Source of the DNA: Chloroflexota bacterium
Lineage (GTDB): Bacteria > Chloroflexota > Limnocylindria > Limnocylindrales > CSP1-4
Assembly (NCBI GenBank): GCA_021802585.1
Contig: JAJZRQ010000006.1
Location: 1-49,189 of the forward strand
Reading direction: 5' to 3'
DNA: 49,189 bases
The position numbers and the translations under genes were made by a program. Under the pieces are notes generated by a model, which worked only from the letters and a program-made list of their open reading frames with translations, did not search any database and was not told the DNA's origin. Position 1 is the stretch's first letter, and every line of letters starts with the position of its first letter. This document shows positions 2,840 through 25,848 of this stretch, piece by piece.

Positions 2840-4093
2840 GTGGGATTCCTCCGCCGCCTCCCGTTCCTCGTCGTCGCGACCGCCCTCGTGGTGGCGGCCT
2901 TCAGCACGGGCGCCCCGTTCCTCTTCTTCCTCGTCTACCTCGGCCTCGCCGTCCTCGGCGGGAGCTACCTCGCGACGCGCCTCGGCCTCAGCGACCTCGA
3001 GGCGGGGTACGCCGTGAACCAGCTCCAGGCACACGTCGGCGAGGTGCTCCGGGCGACGTACACGCTGCGGAGCACGAGCCGCGTGCCGAAGCTGTGGCTC
3101 GAGGTCCACAACCCGACGACGCTCCCCGTGCCGCTCCCGGGCCGCGCGATCTCGCTCGGACCGCGGTCGGAACGCTCGTGGATCGCGAAGGTGCCGCTGG
3201 GGCGCCGGGGGCACTTCCGGGTCGACCCGCTCCAGATCCGGACCGGCGACCCGTTCGGGTTCTTCGAGGCGAGCGCGAGCGTCGGGCACGGCCTGACCCT
3301 CGTCGTCTACCCCCGGGTCGAGCCGATCCCGCGCTGGCGCCTCCAGGCGGCGAGCCTCGAGGGGAACCGCTCCACGCCCGTCCGCACCCAGCAGACGACG
3401 CCCCTCGCGACGACCGTCCGGCCGTACGAGCCCGGGGACAGCTTCAACCGGATCCACTGGCCCTCCACGGCACGGACCGGCGACATCTGGGTGAAGGAGT
3501 TCGACCTCGAGCAGACCGCCGACGTGTGGATCGTCCTCGACCTCCACCGCCCGCCGCAGGTGGGGAGCGGCGACGACGGGACGGTGGAGGTGGCCGTCCG
3601 GGTCGCAGCGGCCGTCGCGGAGCGGGCGATCGAGGAGAACCGCTCGGTCGCGATGACCGCCACCGCGAGCCGGGTCACCGTCCTCCCGCCGGACCGCGGA
3701 CCGCGCCAGCGGCAGAAGATCCTCCAGCTCCTCGCGGCGGTCGACGGCGACGGGGTGACGCCCCTCCAGGAGGCGCTCGTGGGTGTGCTGCCACTCCTCC
3801 GCCGGGGGATGTCGGCGATCGTCATCACCGCCTCCACCGAGCCGGGCTGGGTCCGGCCCCTGGCGACGCTCCGGCCCCGCGGGATCGGCTGCCAGGTCGT
3901 CTGGCTCGACCCCGCCGCGTTCGCCCGGCGGGCCGCGGAGGCGGCCGGCTCGGCCGGTGACCCGGCCGTCGCCGCTGCGCTCGCCGACGTCGCGACGGCG
4001 GCCCGGAGCACGCGCCACGCGATCGCCGAGTTCGACATCCGGACCCATCCGGTCCCACCCGGCGTCCCGCTCGCCGAGGTCCTCGTCGGATGA
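2840..4093 (+). CDS. DUF58 domain protein with N-terminal membrane hairpin
   Basis: The 417-aa protein begins with two hydrophobic segments (about residues 9-26 and 30-48). It then has a beta-rich region typical of DUF58 N-termini (LRSTSRVPKLWLEV) and the DUF58 signature RPYEPGD followed by RIHWPSTARTG near residues 195-215. DUF58 proteins have a von Willebrand factor A-like fold and almost always sit beside MoxR ATPases, which are believed to act on them. The start is GTG, 27 bases after moxR. The stop overlaps the next gene's ATG (ATGA), so expression is probably coupled. No enzymatic activity is known for the family. Confidence 0.9.
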   Translation: MGFLRRLPFLVVATALVVAAFSTGAPFLFFLVYLGLAVLGGSYLATRLGLSDLEAGYAVNQLQAHVGEVLRATYTLRSTSRVPKLWLEVHNPTTLPVPLPGRAISLGPRSERSWIAKVPLGRRGHFRVDPLQIRTGDPFGFFEASASVGHGLTLVVYPRVEPIPRWRLQAASLEGNRSTPVRTQQTTPLATTVRPYEPGDSFNRIHWPSTARTGDIWVKEFDLEQTADVWIVLDLHRPPQVGSGDDGTVEVAVRVAAAVAERAIEENRSVAMTATASRVTVLPPDRGPRQRQKILQLLAAVDGDGVTPLQEALVGVLPLLRRGMSAIVITASTEPGWVRPLATLRPRGIGCQVVWLDPAAFARRAAEAAGSAGDPAVAAALADVATAARSTRHAIAEFDIRTHPVPPGVPLAEVLVG

Positions 4094-6414
4094 CGGTTGC
4101 GCAGACGCCCTTCGACCTCGGCGCGAGCTACACGGCGTCGCAGGCGCCCGCGCGCCGGCTCGCGCTCGCGCCCGAGGAGGGCTGGTCGAGCGTCGTCCTG
4201 CTTGCCCTCCTCTGCGCCCTCCTCGGCTGGGCGATCGACGACGCGCACTGGGTCCTCGGCGACCAGTCGAACACCAACTTCCTGCCCTGGGCGGGGGCGC
4301 TCGGCCTCCTCTGGGGCTTCGCGGCCGCGAAGCTCGGCCGAGGTCGGCTCGTCGCGCACGGCGGCGGGGCGATCCTTGCGACGGCCTTCCTCGTCTTCGC
4401 CGTCGGGAGCCAGCTCGCGCCGGGGCAGGACCCGGGGGCGATGATCCGGGTCACCGCCGACGGCGTGTGGGGCGCGTTCGACGACCTCGTCATCCGGGGC
4501 CGCGCCACGACGACGGAGATCGCCCACTACCTCCTCGTCCTCGGCGGGCTCGTGTGGGCGACGGGCCAGTTCGCGGGCTACGCGGCGTACGCCCACCGGC
4601 GGCCCCTCGCGGCGGTCGTCGTGCCGGGGACGATCCTCCTCGTGAACGTCTCGATCACGGCGCTCGACCAGTACCCGGTCCTCGTCCTGGCCTCGCTCGC
4701 GGCCCTCCTCTTCCTCGTCCGGTTCCGCGTCGCGGACGAGCAGCGGACGTGGGCCCGGCACCGGATCGCCGACGTCGGCAACGCCGTCGGGCTCTCGCTC
4801 CGGGCCGGCCTGTCGTTCGTCGCCATCGCGATGGCGACGAGCCTCGTCCTCGCCGCGGCCGCCTCGTCGGCCCCGCTCGCCGGGTGGTGGCACGGCATCG
4901 ACCAGCGCCTCGTCGACCTCGGCACCCAGCTCGCGCGGTTCTTCCCCTCGGGCGGGCCCGGGACGAGCTTCGGGACGGCCGGCTTCGGGCCGTCGGTGAC
5001 GATCGAGGGCGAGTGGACGTCAGACGACACCCCCGTCCTCACGATCCGCGTCGATCCCGCCGCGCCCCGCCTGAAGTGGCGGGCCGTCGCCTACGACCAG
5101 CTCGTGGGGAACCGCTGGACCCGGAGCGACTCGGTGGACGTCGACGTTGCCGCCGGCCGGCCGGTCCTCGCCGGGACGGGCGAGCTGCCGACCGCGCCCG
5201 TCGCCATGGAGGAGGTGCGGTACACGGTCCAGGGCGTCTCCGGGGATCCCGGGATCCTCGTCGAGCCGGGCATCCCGACGTCGGTCGACCGGGCGTCCCG
5301 GGTGACGCTCGTCGGGGAGTCGTGGTTCGGCGCGGCCCGCGTCGACGGGGCGCGCTCCTACGAGGCGACGGCCGACGTCCCGGTCGTCGCGGAGGGCGTG
5401 GCCGACGCGCTCAGCGCGAACCGCCTGCGGGCCGCCGGCCAGGACTACCCGGAGGCCGTCCGGTCGCTCTATCTCGACCTCCAGCCGGGGACCGCCGGGG
5501 AGGACGTCCGGGCTCTCCTCGCGACGATCCTCGGGCTGGCGCGGCCGACGAACCCGTACGACACCGCCCGGGCGATCGAGAGCTACCTCAGCGACCCCAC
5601 GAAGTTCACGTACCGGACGAACGTCCTCGACGTGGACTGCGGCGGGCGGGGCGTCGCCGACTGCTTCGCCGTCACGCGCCAGGGCTACTGCGAGCACTTC
5701 GCCACGACGATGGTCGTCATGCTCCGGATCGCCGGGATTCCCGCCCGGCTCGTCGAGGGCTACCTGCCCGGCGAGCGCAACGCGGCCGGCGTCGAGCTCA
5801 TCCGCAAGTCCCGCGCCCACGCGTGGGTCGAGGCCTACTTCCCCGGCTTCGGGTGGGTCGACTTCGACCCGACCGCCGCGGTCGGGGAGCCGCAGGCGAT
5901 CCCGGCCGGGCCGCCCGTCGCGACCGCGACCCCGGCGGCGAGCGGCGCCGCGGGCGGCTCGCCCCTGCCGAGCGGGCGCAACGGCATCGACGAGCCGGCC
6001 GGGCCGGGGGAAGGCGGGAGCACCCCCGTCCGGACCCCGGGCATCGGGCCGATCATCGTCGTCGTCCTCCCGCTCGGCGGCGTCCTCCTCGTCCTGGGCG
6101 TGCTCTGGCTCCGGCGCCGTCTGTCGCGCCCGGTCCAGCCGGAGGTCGTCTACCGGACCGTCACCGACATTGCCGGGCGCCTCGGCCACCCGCGCCGTCC
6201 GACGCAGACGGTCTACGAGTACCTCGGCAGCCTGTCGGATGCCCTCCCGTCGGCGCGGCCGGAGCTCCAGCTCGTCGCCCGCGCGACGGTCGAGTCGACG
6301 TACGGCCGGCGCCGGCCCTCGCCGGACCGCCTCGTTGCGCTCGGCGAGGCCCAGCGGCGGCTCCGCCTCGCGCTCCTTCGCCTCGTGTTCCGGCGCAGGA
6401 GCCGACCGCGGTAG
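4090..6414 (+). CDS. Membrane protein with periplasmic transglutaminase-like domain
   Basis: This 774-aa protein has several N-terminal transmembrane helices (within about residues 30-260), a large extracytoplasmic region and a transglutaminase/protease-like domain. The cysteine-protease-type triad is visible: Cys534 in GYCEHFATT, His577 in RAHAWVEAYF and Asp593 in VDFDPT. One further helix lies near residues 655-680, followed by a cytoplasmic tail that looks like the DUF4129-type C-terminus common in these proteins. It is the third gene of the moxR-DUF58-transglutaminase operon and overlaps the DUF58 stop by four bases. Family members may cleave or cross-link peptides at the cell surface; the substrate is unknown. 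The stop codon lies in a 26-bp tandem duplication. Confidence 0.9.
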   Translation: MTVAQTPFDLGASYTASQAPARRLALAPEEGWSSVVLLALLCALLGWAIDDAHWVLGDQSNTNFLPWAGALGLLWGFAAAKLGRGRLVAHGGGAILATAFLVFAVGSQLAPGQDPGAMIRVTADGVWGAFDDLVIRGRATTTEIAHYLLVLGGLVWATGQFAGYAAYAHRRPLAAVVVPGTILLVNVSITALDQYPVLVLASLAALLFLVRFRVADEQRTWARHRIADVGNAVGLSLRAGLSFVAIAMATSLVLAAAASSAPLAGWWHGIDQRLVDLGTQLARFFPSGGPGTSFGTAGFGPSVTIEGEWTSDDTPVLTIRVDPAAPRLKWRAVAYDQLVGNRWTRSDSVDVDVAAGRPVLAGTGELPTAPVAMEEVRYTVQGVSGDPGILVEPGIPTSVDRASRVTLVGESWFGAARVDGARSYEATADVPVVAEGVADALSANRLRAAGQDYPEAVRSLYLDLQPGTAGEDVRALLATILGLARPTNPYDTARAIESYLSDPTKFTYRTNVLDVDCGGRGVADCFAVTRQGYCEHFATTMVVMLRIAGIPARLVEGYLPGERNAAGVELIRKSRAHAWVEAYFPGFGWVDFDPTAAVGEPQAIPAGPPVATATPAASGAAGGSPLPSGRNGIDEPAGPGEGGSTPVRTPGIGPIIVVVLPLGGVLLVLGVLWLRRRLSRPVQPEVVYRTVTDIAGRLGHPRRPTQTVYEYLGSLSDALPSARPELQLVARATVESTYGRRRPSPDRLVALGEAQRRLRLALLRLVFRRRSRPR

Positions 6415-6501: not shown

Positions 6502-7338
6502 CTAGAGCGCCCCGGAGCGGGCCCGCTCGGCGGCCGCGTCCTCCTCGGCCCGCGTCGCCTCGGCGGCTTCGAGCTCGAGGGCGGCGAGGTGCTCCGTCCG
6601 GTTCCACGCGCGGAGGATCGGCCGTCCGTTCCGGACGTCGAGGACGGCGATCCCGGTCGTCGCCTGGGTGAACGTCCAGAAGCGCTCGAGGGGGAGGCCG
6701 AGGAGGGCGAGGAGGGCGACCTTGAACGTGCCGTCATGGCCGACGAGGAGCGTCCAGGGTCCCGCGTGGGGGTCGTAGTAGGACGGCGTGCCCGCGACGC
6801 CGGGCCCGGCCGCGGCCGCGAGCTCGGCAAGGGCGCGCCCGAGCGCCGCGCGGACCCGCGCGTCGACGGCCGCGAGCGACTCACCGCCGGGAGCGTGGAC
6901 TCCCACCGGGTCGCGGCGCCAGCCCGCGATCTCGGCCGGGTAGCGCTCCTCGACCTCGCGCTGGAGGAGCCCTTCCCACGCCCCCTGGGCGATCTCCGCC
7001 AGCCCGGGCTCGGGCCGGAGCGGGGGCGCCGGGCGGCCGGCGGCCGCGATCGCCGCCGCGACGGCCTCGGCCGTCTCGCGCGTCCGGGCGAGCGGGGAGT
7101 GGATGATCGCCACGGGATCGCCGGCCGGCACGGGGAGGCGCGGTGGGCTGTCGGGAGCCGCGAGGCGGGCCCCCGCGAGGGCGGCCTGGCGCGAACCAAG
7201 GGGCGAGAGGGGCGTGTCGCCCTGGCCCTGGAAGCGACCCTCGGCGAGCCAGGCGGACTGACCGTGGCGGAGGAGGACGAGCGTCGCCGCGAGGCCCTCG
7301 GGGACCGCGAGCGGCGGGGGGGTGCCGGCCGCCGTCAC
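6502..7338 (-). CDS. Histidine phosphatase superfamily enzyme, probable phosphoserine phosphatase
   Basis: This 278-aa enzyme has the dPGM-like phosphatase fold. The phosphohistidine motif LLRHGQS places catalytic His25 after Arg24, and further motifs are HSPLARTRETAEAV, a WEG acidic segment and the second active-site histidine in VGHDGTFKV. The GTG start lies seven bases after the serA stop, and the class V aminotransferase gene precedes serA. Metal-independent phosphoserine phosphatases of this fold are known from Hydrogenobacter and related bacteria, and phosphoserine phosphatase is the one step of the serine pathway otherwise missing from this operon. The assignment is therefore inference from context. 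A cobalamin-type phosphatase (CobC-like) or a generic phosphomutase is the alternative. The C-terminal 40 residues are Ala/Glu-rich and look non-catalytic. Confidence 0.85.
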   Translation of the reverse strand: MTAAGTPPPLAVPEGLAATLVLLRHGQSAWLAEGRFQGQGDTPLSPLGSRQAALAGARLAAPDSPPRLPVPAGDPVAIIHSPLARTRETAEAVAAAIAAAGRPAPPLRPEPGLAEIAQGAWEGLLQREVEERYPAEIAGWRRDPVGVHAPGGESLAAVDARVRAALGRALAELAAAAGPGVAGTPSYYDPHAGPWTLLVGHDGTFKVALLALLGLPLERFWTFTQATTGIAVLDVRNGRPILRAWNRTEHLAALELEAAEATRAEEDAAAERARSGAL

Positions 7339-7345
7339 GCCCCGG

Positions 7346-8935
7346 TCACCCGGCCGGCTCGAGATCGATGACCCACTGGTCGATGACGCCGTCGATCGCC
7401 CGGATCGCCGCCTCCGTGGCGGCCGGGACCGGGTCGTCGAGGGCGAGGAACATGACGGCGTCGCTCCGGGGCGCCGATCGCCCGAGGTGCATCGCGCTGA
7501 TGTTCACGTCGGCCGCGCCGAGGAGGCTCCCGACGCGCCCGATCATCCCTGGCCGGTCCATGTGGCTCGAGATGAGCATCCACGGCGCCGGCGCGACGTC
7601 GAGCCAGTAGTCGTCGAGGCGGACGAACCGCGGCTCGCCGTTCGCCAGCGTCCCGGCGACCGTCCGGACGACCCCGTCGGCCGCGGTCCCCGCGAGCGTG
7701 ACGAGCGTCGCGAAGGCGCCCGCGTCGGGCGTCCGGCGCTCGACGATCGTCAGCCCCCGGGTCTTCGCCAGCATCCCCGCGTTCACGAGGTTCACCCGCT
7801 CGTTCGACGCGTCCTGGAGGAGCCCCCGCAGGACGGCGGCGTGGAGCGGCGTGACGTCGTGCTCGGCGAGCTCGCCCGCCACCTCGAGGGTCACGGAGCG
7901 AACGCCGCCGCGGGAGTACTGGGCGAGGAAGCGCCCGAGGAGCTCCGCGAGGGGGAGGTACGGAGCGATCGCGCGAGCCGTCTCGGGCGTGAGGAGCGGG
8001 GCGTTCACCGCATACCGCGCCGGCCGCCCGTCGAGGACCTCGAGGACCTGCTGGGAGGCCTCCTCGGCGACCGCGACCTGCGCCTCCGCCGTGGAGGCGC
8101 CGAGGTGTGGCGTGAGGACCGTGTTCGGCGCGTCGAGGAGCGGGTTGTCGGCCGCGGGCGGCTCGCTCGAGAAGACGTCGATCGCCGCGCCCCCGAGCGC
8201 GCCCCCCTTCAGCGCCGCGGCGAGGGCCATCTCGTCGACGACCCCGCCGCGGGAGACGTTGAGGAGGAAGGCCGTGGGCTTCATCCGGGCGAGCTGCGAC
8301 GCCCCGATCATCCCGGCCGTCGCCTTCGTCTTCGGCACGTGGAGGGTCACGACATCGCTCCGCTCGAGGAGCTCGTCGAGGCCGACGAGCTCGATCCCGT
8401 GGTTCGCGGCCGCGTCGGCGGTGACGTACGGGTCGGCGCCGAGGACCGTCATCTCCAGGGCCCGGGCCCGGTCGGCGATCGCGCCGCCGATCTTGCCGAG
8501 CCCGACGATCCCGAGGACCTTGCCGCGGAGCTCGACCCCGGTGAAGGCACTCCGCCGCCACTCCCCGCGACGGAGCGAGGCGTCGGCGGCCGGGACCCGC
8601 CGGGCGAGGGCGAAGAGGAGGGCGAGCGTGTGCTCGGCGGCGGCGATCGTATTGCCGGTCGGGGCGTTGACGACGGTGATCCCGGCGCGGGTCGCCGCGT
8701 CGAGGTCGACGTTGTCGACGCCGACCCCCGCCCGTCCGATGACGGAGAGGCGGGTCCCGGCGGCGATCATCGCCGCGTCCACCTTCACCTGGCTGCGGAC
8801 GAGGAGGGCGTCGTACTCCGGGAGGATCGCCCGGTACTCCTCGGGGGAGAGGCCGACCCGCTCGTCGACCTCGTGGTGCTGACGGAGGAGCTCGACGCCC
8901 GACGGGGCGAGGGGCTCGGCGACGAGGATCCTCAC
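7346..8935 (-). CDS. serA: D-3-phosphoglycerate dehydrogenase
   Basis: This cytosolic enzyme oxidises 3-phosphoglycerate to 3-phosphohydroxypyruvate with NAD, the first step of serine synthesis. The 529-aa length marks the long SerA type. The domains are a substrate/NAD-binding core with Rossmann motif [10 protein letters not shown]; catalytic Arg, Glu and His in NVSRGG, VFSSEPP and LTPHLGAST; an intervening domain; and a C-terminal ACT domain (from about residue 455, [17 protein letters not shown]) that usually binds serine for feedback control. The GTG start overlaps the stop of the aminotransferase gene (GTGA), and the phosphatase-fold gene follows after seven bases. The three genes make a plausible complete pathway from 3-phosphoglycerate to serine. 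Confidence 0.96.
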
Positions 8936-10125
8936 GCGGGCGTTCCCCCGGCGACGGCCGCCACGGGAGCCCCGAGCTCGGCGAGGGCCGCGCGCTGGGC
9001 GGCCGCGACGGCCGCGCCGGGCGTCACCGCGCGGCCGGTCCGCAGGGCCGCCTCCTCGAGGACGGCGATCGCCCCGAGGATCTCCTCGACCTCGACCGAG
9101 CCGAGGTGGCCGACGCGGAAGATCCGGCCCTTGAGCTCCCCCTGGCCGCCGGCGAGGACGAGGCCCCGGCGCTTCGCCTCGCCGTTGAACGCCTTCCAGT
9201 CGACATCGTCGGGCACCCAGGCGGCGGTCACCGTCTGCGAGGCGTGCGCGGGATCGGCGAGGAGCTCGAAGCCGAGGGCCCGGAGGCCGGCGCGGGTCGC
9301 CGCCGCGCACGCGGCGTGGCGGGCGAAGACCCCGGCCGGCGTCTCCTCCTCCATGAGCCGGAGGCCCTCGTCGGCCTGGTACATGACGGCGACGGCGGGC
9401 GTCCACGGCGTCTGGCCCGTCGCCGCGCTCTCGCGGGCGCGGCGGAGGTCGAAGTAGAAGCGCGGCATCCGGGCGCTCTCCATCGCGGCCCAGGCGCGCT
9501 CGGCGACGGCCGCGAACGCCATCCCCGGGGCGCTCATCCACGCCTTCTGGGAGCCGGTCACGACGAGGTCGAGGCCCCAGGCGTCCATCTCGAAGGGAAC
9601 GGCCCCGAGGGCGCTGATCGCGTCGACCAGGATGAGCGCGTCCGGGGCGATCTCCCGGACCGTTGCCGCAAGCTCCGCGACCGGGTTCGTCACCCCCGTC
9701 GACGTCTCGTTGTGGGTCAGGAGGACGGCGCGGACTGCTGATTCCTCGAGGAGCGCGGCCCGGACGGCATCCGGCGTCGCTGCCGTTCCCCAGGCGAACG
9801 CGAGCCGGCGGACGTCTGCCCCGTAGACCTCGGCCACCTTCGCGAACCGCTCGCCGAACGCCCCGACGGTGACGGCGAGGACGCGGTCGCCCGGCGAGAG
9901 GACGTTGACGACGGCGGCCTCGAGCGCGCCCGTGCCGGCGGCGGTGAGGAGGACGATGTCGCCGGTCGTGCCGAAGAACGGCCGCATCCGGCGGACGATC
10001 CGCTCCAGGAGGGCGGCGAACTCCGGGCCGCGGTGGTTGATCATCTGGCGGCCGCCGGCGGCCATCACCGAGGGCGGCAGGGCGGTCGGGCCGGGGATCC
10101 GGAGGTTCTGCTCGAAGCGGGGCAC
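8932..10125 (-). CDS. Class V aminotransferase (serine-pyruvate / phosphoserine aminotransferase type)
   Basis: This 397-aa PLP-dependent enzyme is of fold type I, class V. The N-terminal [11 protein letters not shown] is typical of the serine-pyruvate/alanine-glyoxylate group. The PLP-binding lysine is Lys194 in VTGSQKAWM, and the aspartate of [12 protein letters not shown] contacts the pyridine ring. The start is GTG with a strong GAGGAGG eight bases upstream. It is first in an operon with serA and the phosphatase-fold gene, so it most likely makes phosphoserine from phosphohydroxypyruvate, standing in for SerC. Serine-glyoxylate or alanine-glyoxylate transfer is the alternative. The family is certain; the substrate is inferred from the operon. 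Confidence 0.92.
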
Positions 10126-10258: not shown

Positions 10259-10522
10259 ATGTCAGCACTCCGCCGGACGACGATCCTCGCCGACGCCGAC
10301 CTCCTCGACCGCCTCGAGCGGCACGCCCGCCGGACGCGGACGACGAAGACCGCGCTCATCGCGGCGGCCCTCGAGGCGTACCTCGAGGCCCACGCGGCGC
10401 GGCCGGAGCTGCCGTTCGTCGGCGTCGGCCGGAGCACCAACGGACGCCTGTCGCTCGACGCGCGGCGGATCGCCGGGCGCGAGCTCGGGTCCCGGCGCCG
10501 GGCGGACGCGGCCGAGGGCTGA
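10259..10522 (+). CDS. Ribbon-helix-helix antitoxin (CopG/VapB-like)
   Basis: This 87-aa basic protein begins [19 protein letters not shown], a ribbon-helix-helix DNA-binding fold in which the strand is followed by helices ([17 protein letters not shown]). The C-terminal tail (about 45-87) probably binds and blocks the PIN toxin encoded five bases downstream. RHH antitoxins normally repress their own operon. AT-rich TATATAT at 10244-10250, just before the ATG, is the likely -10 and operator region; no Shine-Dalgarno sequence is evident. An ATG at 10249 is in another frame. The gene diverges from the serine operon. Confidence 0.82.
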
Positions 10523-10527
10523 CCCCG

Positions 10528-10950
10528 GTGGCCATCTTCCTCGACGTGTCGGCGATCCTCGCTGCCGCGGACACCGCCGACCTCAACCACGACGCCGCGC
10601 GGGCCTGGTTCGAGCGCGTCGACGAGCCGCTCCTCGTCGGGGCCCTGACGCTCGGGGAGGCGGACCACGTCCTCCGGCGCGAGCTCGGGCCCGCCGCAGC
10701 GGCGGCCCTCGTCGCGGCGGTCACCTCGGGGGCCATCCGGGTCGTGGCCCCGACGGAGGCCGACCTCGGTCGCGCCGTCGCGATCCTCGAGGGCGCGGCG
10801 GAGCACCGCCCGCGCCTGTCCGACGCCCTCCTCGTCGCCGCCGCGGAGCGCCTTGGCGTGCAGCGCGTGGCGACGTTCGACCGGCGGCCGCTCGCCGTCC
10901 TCGCCCCGCGCGGCCCTCGCGGCGAGCGAACCTTCGACCTCGAGCCGTAG
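10528..10950 (+). CDS. PIN-domain ribonuclease toxin (VapC-like)
   Basis: This 140-aa PIN-domain protein carries the four acidic residues expected to hold Mg2+: Asp6 (FLDVSAIL), Glu44 (LGEADHVL), Asp99 (RLSDALL) and Asp118 (ATFDRR). VapC-type toxins cleave specific RNAs, often tRNA or rRNA, when freed from antitoxin. The GTG start lies five bases after the antitoxin stop, the usual toxin-antitoxin layout. The RNA target cannot be predicted. All catalytic positions are intact, so the toxin is probably functional. Confidence 0.87.
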
Positions 10951-24793: not shown

Positions 24794-25848
24794 TGGGCGG
24801 CGGCCCCGGCCCCGGGCTCGACGACCTCTCGGCGGACCTCCCGCCGGCGACGCCCCCCGGTGTTCCGCGCGCGATCGCCCTGTCGCCGATCCTCGCGGCC
24901 CGCCTCCGCCCCCAGGACCTCGCGGCGATCCGCGCGGCCGCCCCCGGGGCGCGGCTCGTCACCCTCTCCCGCGAGGGGCTCGCCGACGGCCCCCTCGACG
25001 ACGTCGAGGTGCTCCTCCACGGCTGGCTCGCGCCCGACGCGTTCGAGCGGCTCCTCGCGCGGGCGCCGGGCCTCCGCTGGATCCACTCGGCGGCGGCCGG
25101 CGTCGAGCGCCTCCTCTCGCCCGCGGGCGTGGCCCGGGGGCTCACGATCACGAACGCGCGGGGCGTCTTCAGCCGCCCGATCGCGGAGTACGTCCTCATG
25201 ATGACCCTCGCCGTGAACCGGCGGCTCCCGCAGCTCCTCGAGCTCGCCGCCGAGCGCACGTGGCAGCCCCTGGAGGGTCGCGAGCTCCGCGACACGACCC
25301 TCGGGATCGTCGGGTTCGGGAGCATCGGCCGGGCGATCGCCGAGCTCGCCGCCCCGTTCGGGCCGCGGATCGTCGCGACCCGGCGCTCGCCCGGCCTCCG
25401 GCCCGCCGAGCCGCCGCTGCCGCCCGGCGTCGAGGTCGGCGGCCCGGAGACGTTCGGCGACGTCGTCGCGGCCGCCGACTTCGTGATCCTCGCCCTGCCC
25501 CTCACGCCGGAGACGGAGGACCTCGTCGACGACCGCGTCCTCGGCCTCATGAAGCGGACGGCCTGGCTCGTCAACGTCGCCCGCGGCCGCCTCGTCGTCG
25601 AGCGGGCCCTCCTCCGCGCCCTCCGCGAGGGGACGATCGGCGGGGCGGTGCTCGACGCGTTCCGCGAGGAGCCCCTGCCGCCGGACTCGCCCTTCTACGC
25701 CCTCCCCAACGTCATCGTCACGCCCCACACCGCGTGGTCGAGCGGCCGCGTCCTCGACCGCACGGTCGACCTCTTCGCCGAGAACCTCCGGCGGTACGCG
25801 GCGGGCGCGCCGCTCCTCAACACGGTGGACCCGGGCGCCGGATACTGA
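24793..25848 (+). CDS. D-2-hydroxyacid dehydrogenase (NAD-dependent)
   Basis: This 351-aa enzyme interconverts a 2-oxoacid and a D-2-hydroxyacid. It has the Rossmann motif GFGSIGRAIAELA, and the catalytic residues appear as Arg in VNVARGRLV, Glu in FREEPLP and His in VTPHTAWSS. The N-terminal half has the flavodoxin-like substrate domain (WIHSAAAGVERLL). It differs from the SerA of this window by lacking the ACT and intervening domains. The ATG overlaps the preceding stop by one base, and ychF begins four bases after its stop. The substrate (glyoxylate, hydroxypyruvate or other) is undetermined. Confidence 0.9.
   Translation: MGGGPGPGLDDLSADLPPATPPGVPRAIALSPILAARLRPQDLAAIRAAAPGARLVTLSREGLADGPLDDVEVLLHGWLAPDAFERLLARAPGLRWIHSAAAGVERLLSPAGVARGLTITNARGVFSRPIAEYVLMMTLAVNRRLPQLLELAAERTWQPLEGRELRDTTLGIVGFGSIGRAIAELAAPFGPRIVATRRSPGLRPAEPPLPPGVEVGGPETFGDVVAAADFVILALPLTPETEDLVDDRVLGLMKRTAWLVNVARGRLVVERALLRALREGTIGGAVLDAFREEPLPPDSPFYALPNVIVTPHTAWSSGRVLDRTVDLFAENLRRYAAGAPLLNTVDPGAGY

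Follow-up and report, generated by a model that had tools for sequence, protein, structure and literature searches.

We examined a 49,189-nucleotide stretch of DNA from a Chloroflexota bacterium of the class Limnocylindria (assembly GCA_021802585.1, contig JAJZRQ010000006.1; hereafter the window), in which three tandem minus-strand genes very probably form, judging from their sequence, a phosphorylated serine pathway operon ending in an enzyme like the metal-independent phosphoserine phosphatases (iPSPs). In order, the genes encode a class V aminotransferase, the proposed phosphoserine aminotransferase (positions 8932-10125, 397 aa, from a GTG at 10125 preceded by a GAGGAGG motif to a TGA at 8932), the D-3-phosphoglycerate dehydrogenase SerA (7346-8935, 529 aa, GTG at 8935 to TGA at 7346), and a histidine phosphatase, the proposed metal-independent phosphoserine phosphatase (6502-7338, 278 aa, GTG at 7338 to TAG at 6502). 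SerA, by its family assignment, would convert 3-phosphoglycerate to 3-phosphohydroxypyruvate, the aminotransferase would convert this to O-phosphoserine, and the phosphatase would release serine from phosphoserine through a phosphohistidine intermediate, presumably without a metal, standing in for the missing HAD-type SerB. The phosphohistidine mechanism is expected from superfamily membership and conserved catalytic residues, while the substrate and metal independence are predictions.

A first-pass annotation, made from the window alone, had described three tightly spaced genes (gaps of -4 and 7 bases) for a class V aminotransferase, SerA, and a dPGM-like phosphatase, and both the reading frames and the profile matches agree with it. 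The stop of the aminotransferase and the start of SerA share the four bases GTGA (8932-8935, minus strand), and a 7-base gap (7339-7345, minus strand) separates SerA from the phosphatase. SerA scores 613.3 bits on the TIGR01327 PGDH model (cut-off 454), which places it in that family, and carries the Pfam domains 2-Hacid_dh_C, 2-Hacid_dh, PGDH_inter (PF19304), and ACT (PF01842); the aminotransferase matches Aminotran_5 (PF00266) at 4.7e-22 and the phosphatase matches His_Phos_1 (PF00300) at 1.2e-44. A second 2-hydroxyacid dehydrogenase, distant from SerA (34% identity), lies at 25051-25818 on the plus strand of the window.

We searched the window genome (a 2.65 Mb assembly in 141 contigs, 95.9% complete) as part of a comparison set of 177 genomes of the class, which includes the window's family (f1, 107 genomes) and the families f4 (28) and f5 (22). 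No classical SerB exceeded the TIGR00338 cut-off in any of the 177 genomes, in a search that was positive for 7 of 14 control genomes, and the best TIGR00338 match in the window genome reached only 6.0e-5. The first-pass claim that HAD-type SerB is missing is borne out by this search, and because no SerB was found, serine synthesis seems incomplete across the class under standard annotation. SerC is absent from the window genome as well. A PF00266 profile search gave 14 matches there: the operon aminotransferase, six other proteins (L013-L017 and L019) that are cysteine-desulfurase-like, other class V, or PhnW-like and of which none exceeded a SerC cut-off in NCBIfam, and seven weak matches of at most 31.7 bits. 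On the SerC models, the operon aminotransferase itself scores 21.7 bits (TIGR01364, cut-off 443.6) and 55.4 bits (TIGR01366, cut-off 401.7). The operon protein is therefore a PF00266 member in an operon with serA in a genome without SerC, which is the pattern expected of a SerC3-like enzyme, and we propose from this linkage, the absence of SerC, and precedent that it is a phosphoserine aminotransferase. Among the six other proteins, the PhnW-like aminotransferase on contig C44 (L019) has at its N terminus a segment similar to phosphonatase-like hydrolases (weak TIGR03351 match).

The linkage of the phosphatase to serine genes is not due to chance. Phosphatase matches below 1e-20 occur in 96 of the 107 f1 genomes, and SerA adjoins the phosphatase in 43 of the 44 f1 genomes whose phosphatase neighborhoods we inspected, the window's included. 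The aminotransferase lies upstream in 23 of the 24 f1 genomes with enough flanking sequence, the copy at L155 being broken into three matches. The site itself is recognizable from its flanks, a RarA-like ATPase gene at one end and, at the other, a run of convergent genes that are transglutaminase-like, DUF58-like, and MoxR-like (names by resemblance), and its state in f1 is aminotransferase-SerA-phosphatase. The two exceptions each lack one partner: in G062 the site holds aminotransferase-phosphatase, and the best SerA match in that genome is a distant 40%; in G061 it holds SerA-phosphatase, and the best aminotransferase match is a distant 32%. In f5, the site holds aminotransferase-phosphatase in all 11 informative genomes (excluding L194, at a contig end), and in the ones checked SerA is encoded elsewhere; two f5 genomes, G158 and G162, have the aminotransferase alone. 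Since the phosphatase stays with either partner when the other is absent, a shared pathway is supported, and in f1 the linkage would fill both missing steps of serine synthesis.

The 11 f1 genomes without a phosphatase match below 1e-20 include four (G030, G088, G026, and G002) in which a contig end close to the aminotransferase truncates the operon and six that are 54-62% complete; the remaining one, G105 (91% complete), lacks the aminotransferase, the phosphatase, and a close SerA. Variation in the other genes was also seen. SerA is matched only over residues 1-301 in G102 and 1-313 in G064 (L206 and L147), so its regulatory domains may be missing or altered there. In the f2 genomes, 1 Mb relatives (G107, G113, G116, G120, and G125), the aminotransferase is absent from all three searched and SerA from four of five, a pattern that suggests serine auxotrophy. 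Record JAICUY010000006.1 (L214), titled Steroidobacteraceae, bears the f5 aminotransferase-phosphatase pair, and its title looks wrong.

The three-gene order recurs in a second phylum. From a scan of named genomes we kept 80 loci out of a larger number of matches, two of them (L213 and L218) cut by contig ends. Among the matches listed, three Synergistota contigs (L219, L232, and L234) share the aminotransferase-SerA-phosphatase order of the window, with genes overlapping or adjoining, and a fourth has SerA-phosphatase at the contig start, where the locus is cut. For the three contigs with the full order, phosphatase identity is 33-37%. The first-pass annotation had rested its functional prediction on the physical linkage of all three steps, and the recurrence of that linkage within f1 and in Synergistota strengthens the case. 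Cyanobacterial relatives of the phosphatase dominate among the matches listed, none of them next to SerA or an aminotransferase. Actinobacterial and other loci among these matches showed no link to either gene, and at one Armatimonadota locus (L279) SerA lies about 1 kb from the phosphatase relative. In 48 of the 52 cyanobacterial loci listed (among L220-L290), the relative directly adjoins a second histidine phosphatase gene.

Both proposed substitutions have precedents. PMC9026213 proposes a PF00300 phosphatase near serA (SerB2, in Peptoniphilus) as a SerB substitute and a PF00266 aminotransferase near serA (SerC3) as a SerC substitute, and PMC3590821 proposes a cyanobacterial dPGM-like protein, PGM3 of S. 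elongatus, as a phosphoserine phosphatase. These are the nearest reports we found; the available parts of the two papers contain no three-gene cassette with a histidine phosphatase, and those of PMC9026213 no serC3-serA-serB2 arrangement and no Chloroflexota example, though such a cassette may still be published. Because histidine-type phosphoserine phosphatases and class V SerC substitutes beside serA are already described, the kind of system is known, and the serine operon with a histidine-type phosphatase is a well supported, largely expected variation on known biology. The cyanobacterial genes of our scan, whose correspondence to PGM3 is assumed, resemble the window phosphatase in a C-terminal His-Leu (9/9) and have HDA after the second catalytic His where f1 has HDG; they differ from it in keeping the residues equivalent to His85 and Asn15 of Hydrogenobacter thermophilus PspA (HtPspA) and in having a second histidine phosphatase, not SerA, as neighbor.

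Comparison with solved structures places the window phosphatase closest to HtPspA, an iPSP1 enzyme. The nearest solved sequence is this phosphoserine phosphatase (4IJ5, E 2.7e-20), followed by PhoE (7.6e-11), and in a VIA-align comparison of the AlphaFold model (pLDDT 92.9), 4IJ6 leads with a Z of 27.5 and an rmsd of 1.5 over 203 residues. The two proteins share the fold, the catalytic R-H-R-E-H set (R24, H25, R85, E115, and H201 in the window protein, all conserved, as expected of the histidine phosphatase fold), the RxQG motif, and the C-terminal HL (H250 and L251). The HL is present in 21 of 21 f1, 12 of 12 f5, 9 of 9 cyanobacterial, and 4 of 4 Synergistota sequences, and also in E. coli GpmB. 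Where the window protein departs from HtPspA, it has Gln at His85, Leu at Asn15, and a lengthened loop ahead of the second catalytic His. Taken together, linkage, the absence of alternatives, and the precedents, as far as the available parts of PMC9026213 and PMC3590821 go, make phosphoserine the most likely substrate. The parts of the first-pass interpretation that can be examined computationally all fit: the linkage, the lack of serB, of a SerC-type protein, and of CobS, a separate dPGM, and PspA as the nearest solved protein.

Several observations count against this assignment. The window phosphatase scores 97.1 bits on the NF045917 PspA model, far under the cut-off of 350, and PhoE is nearly as close in fold as 4IJ6 (Z 26.5, rmsd 2.0, 204 residues), as are other histidine phosphatases. 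HtPspA His85 corresponds to Gln118 in the window protein and Asn15 to Leu31. The His85 position is Q in 19, M in 1, and H in 1 of the f1 sequences and Q in 11 and A in 1 of the f5 sequences; it is H in all 9 cyanobacterial and all 4 Synergistota sequences. The Asn15 position is replaced in all 21 f1 sequences (I in 12, V in 7, L in 2) and is N in every f5, cyanobacterial, and Synergistota row and in E. coli CobC, GpmA, GpmB, and PhoE, with S in 7 rows of the type found on contig C86. His85 and the C-terminal region of HtPspA reportedly matter for phosphoserine phosphatase activity, and because the first of these is Gln in the window protein, the phosphoserine prediction rests mainly on context. 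A tree of 70 phosphatases unites the f1 sequences in one group (support 100/100) and fails to place that group at its deep forks; in the approximately unbiased (AU) test, p was 0.463 for a grouping with iPSPs and 0.39 for one with f5. The aminotransferase sequence holds nothing that tells phosphohydroxypyruvate from glyoxylate as substrate. Lastly, f3 and f4 keep the aminotransferase-SerA pair without an adjoining phosphatase in 8 of 8 loci (L121, L123-L127, L129, and L130), with no serB over the cut-off, so the phosphatase does not invariably accompany the pair. In several of these loci the pair is flanked by the MoxR-DUF58-transglutaminase run. A strong PF00300 protein in f3/f4 that might serve as a substitute is not near the serine genes in the loci read; in most it lies near adenine-phosphoribosyltransferase-like and nucleotidase-like genes (names by resemblance), and a gap in the pathway remains for these relatives.

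The context that favors a phosphoserine phosphatase would mislead if the protein were a CobC-type or other small-molecule phosphatase (for alpha-ribazole phosphate, glucosyl-3-phosphoglycerate, or a riboflavin precursor) riding in a serine operon, which we consider improbable. The family models do not separate these groups: the window protein scores 97.9 bits on TIGR03162 CobC (cut-off 162.9), almost the same as on PspA, and HtPspA itself scores 148 on the CobC model (cut-off 163). Since no model is passed, and PspA, CobC, and RNase H/acid phosphatase lie within about 11 bits of each other, the models cannot decide; the PspA cut-off is also failed by the relatives at L232 (169.9 bits) and L234 (131.0) in Synergistota and at L226 in cyanobacteria (127.8). 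For annotation, the warning is that phosphatases of this kind show up as near-misses of CobC. Foldseek puts a riboflavin-pathway phosphatase (9MMH) first and 4IJ6 second, and with PhoE only 1.0 Z lower than 4IJ6, fold alone cannot name the substrate. A grouping of f1 with the C86 orthologues and E. coli CobC received an AU p of 0.292, so that none of the three groupings was rejected, and the tree neither shows nor rejects the CobC placement that the first-pass annotation had named as contrary evidence. Evidence from gene content points away from CobC. Following the first-pass proposal to check the genome for serB and cobalamin genes, we found no serB over the cut-off, as described above, and no match to CobS (PF02654) in the window genome, which leaves the CobC candidate without the expected nucleotide-loop assembly. 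CobS occurs in 19 of the 177 genomes (10/107 f1, 9/28 f4, 0/22 f5) and is absent from the window genome, its genus, and all 22 f5 genomes, even though these have the phosphatase. Linkage to SerA or the aminotransferase persists where one of the two has been lost and is seen again in Synergistota, and the C-terminal HL is absent from E. coli CobC.

Other proteins of the genome bear on the remaining alternatives. Serine might be made by a HAD phosphatase encoded elsewhere, leaving the operon phosphatase an auxiliary role, and two proteins, a HAD-IB type on contig C27 and an MtnX-like one on C4, both exceed the PF12710 cut-off; f3 and f4 also manage without an operonic histidine phosphatase. Both proteins nonetheless fall under every NCBIfam cut-off, C27 being nearest to TIGR01490 and histidinol-phosphatase models, and with the top TIGR00338 match so weak we regard this explanation as quite unlikely. 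Still less probable is a role of the operon in glyoxylate and glycerate metabolism, in which the three proteins would be serine-glyoxylate aminotransferase, hydroxypyruvate reductase, and a phosphatase for phosphoglycolate or 3-phosphoglycerate. The aminotransferase exceeds no specific NCBIfam cut-off, its best match being BhcA (300 bits against 650), and its nearest solved structures are 2DR1 and 6PK1; in favor of this role, it is nearest to BhcA and to a solved serine-glyoxylate aminotransferase. Against it, SerA scores over the cut-off for PGDH and includes both the intervening and the ACT domain, and the genome would otherwise show no phosphorylated-pathway route to serine. The third gene belongs to the dPGM superfamily, yet there is hardly any chance that it is the glycolytic phosphoglycerate mutase, since it scores 29 bits on TIGR01258 (cut-off 81.7) and a separate, full dPGM is encoded on C82 (403 bits, cut-off 305). 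The window genome has four PF00300 proteins in all: the operon phosphatase, a CobC-like protein (C86), this true dPGM, and a partial SixA-like protein (C119).

The f1 family may have its own phosphoserine phosphatase subclass with a rebuilt phosphate and substrate pocket, and the cassette it shares with Synergistota may be a recurring alternative to serC and serB, a proposal we hold only tentatively and think somewhat doubtful. Its basis is an Asn, widely conserved, that follows soon after the catalytic RHG and is replaced by Leu, Ile, or Val in all 21 f1 sequences, and the His85 position, which is mostly Gln. Through the conserved active-site replacements, the requirements of the signature residues for phosphoserine could be put to a well-defined test. 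What merits further attention are these clade-wide replacements and the recurrence of the full cassette in Synergistota.

Some features around the operon and its relatives are recorded here. The convergent gene at 4090-6414 on the plus strand, a conserved landmark at one flank of the operon in an arrangement shared by other loci, is presumably transglutaminase-like, a name given by resemblance. The interval from the aminotransferase to the RarA-like gene contains a VapB-like antitoxin frame (10259-10522, plus strand) and then a PIN-domain-like frame (about 10519-10950), both named by resemblance only; L325 and L328 have similar frames at this site. Seven f3/f4 loci (L121, L123, L124, L125, L126, L129, and L130) encode, near SerA, a conserved protein that is about 100 aa long and starts MEAxxFER; in several of them it is directly downstream of SerA.

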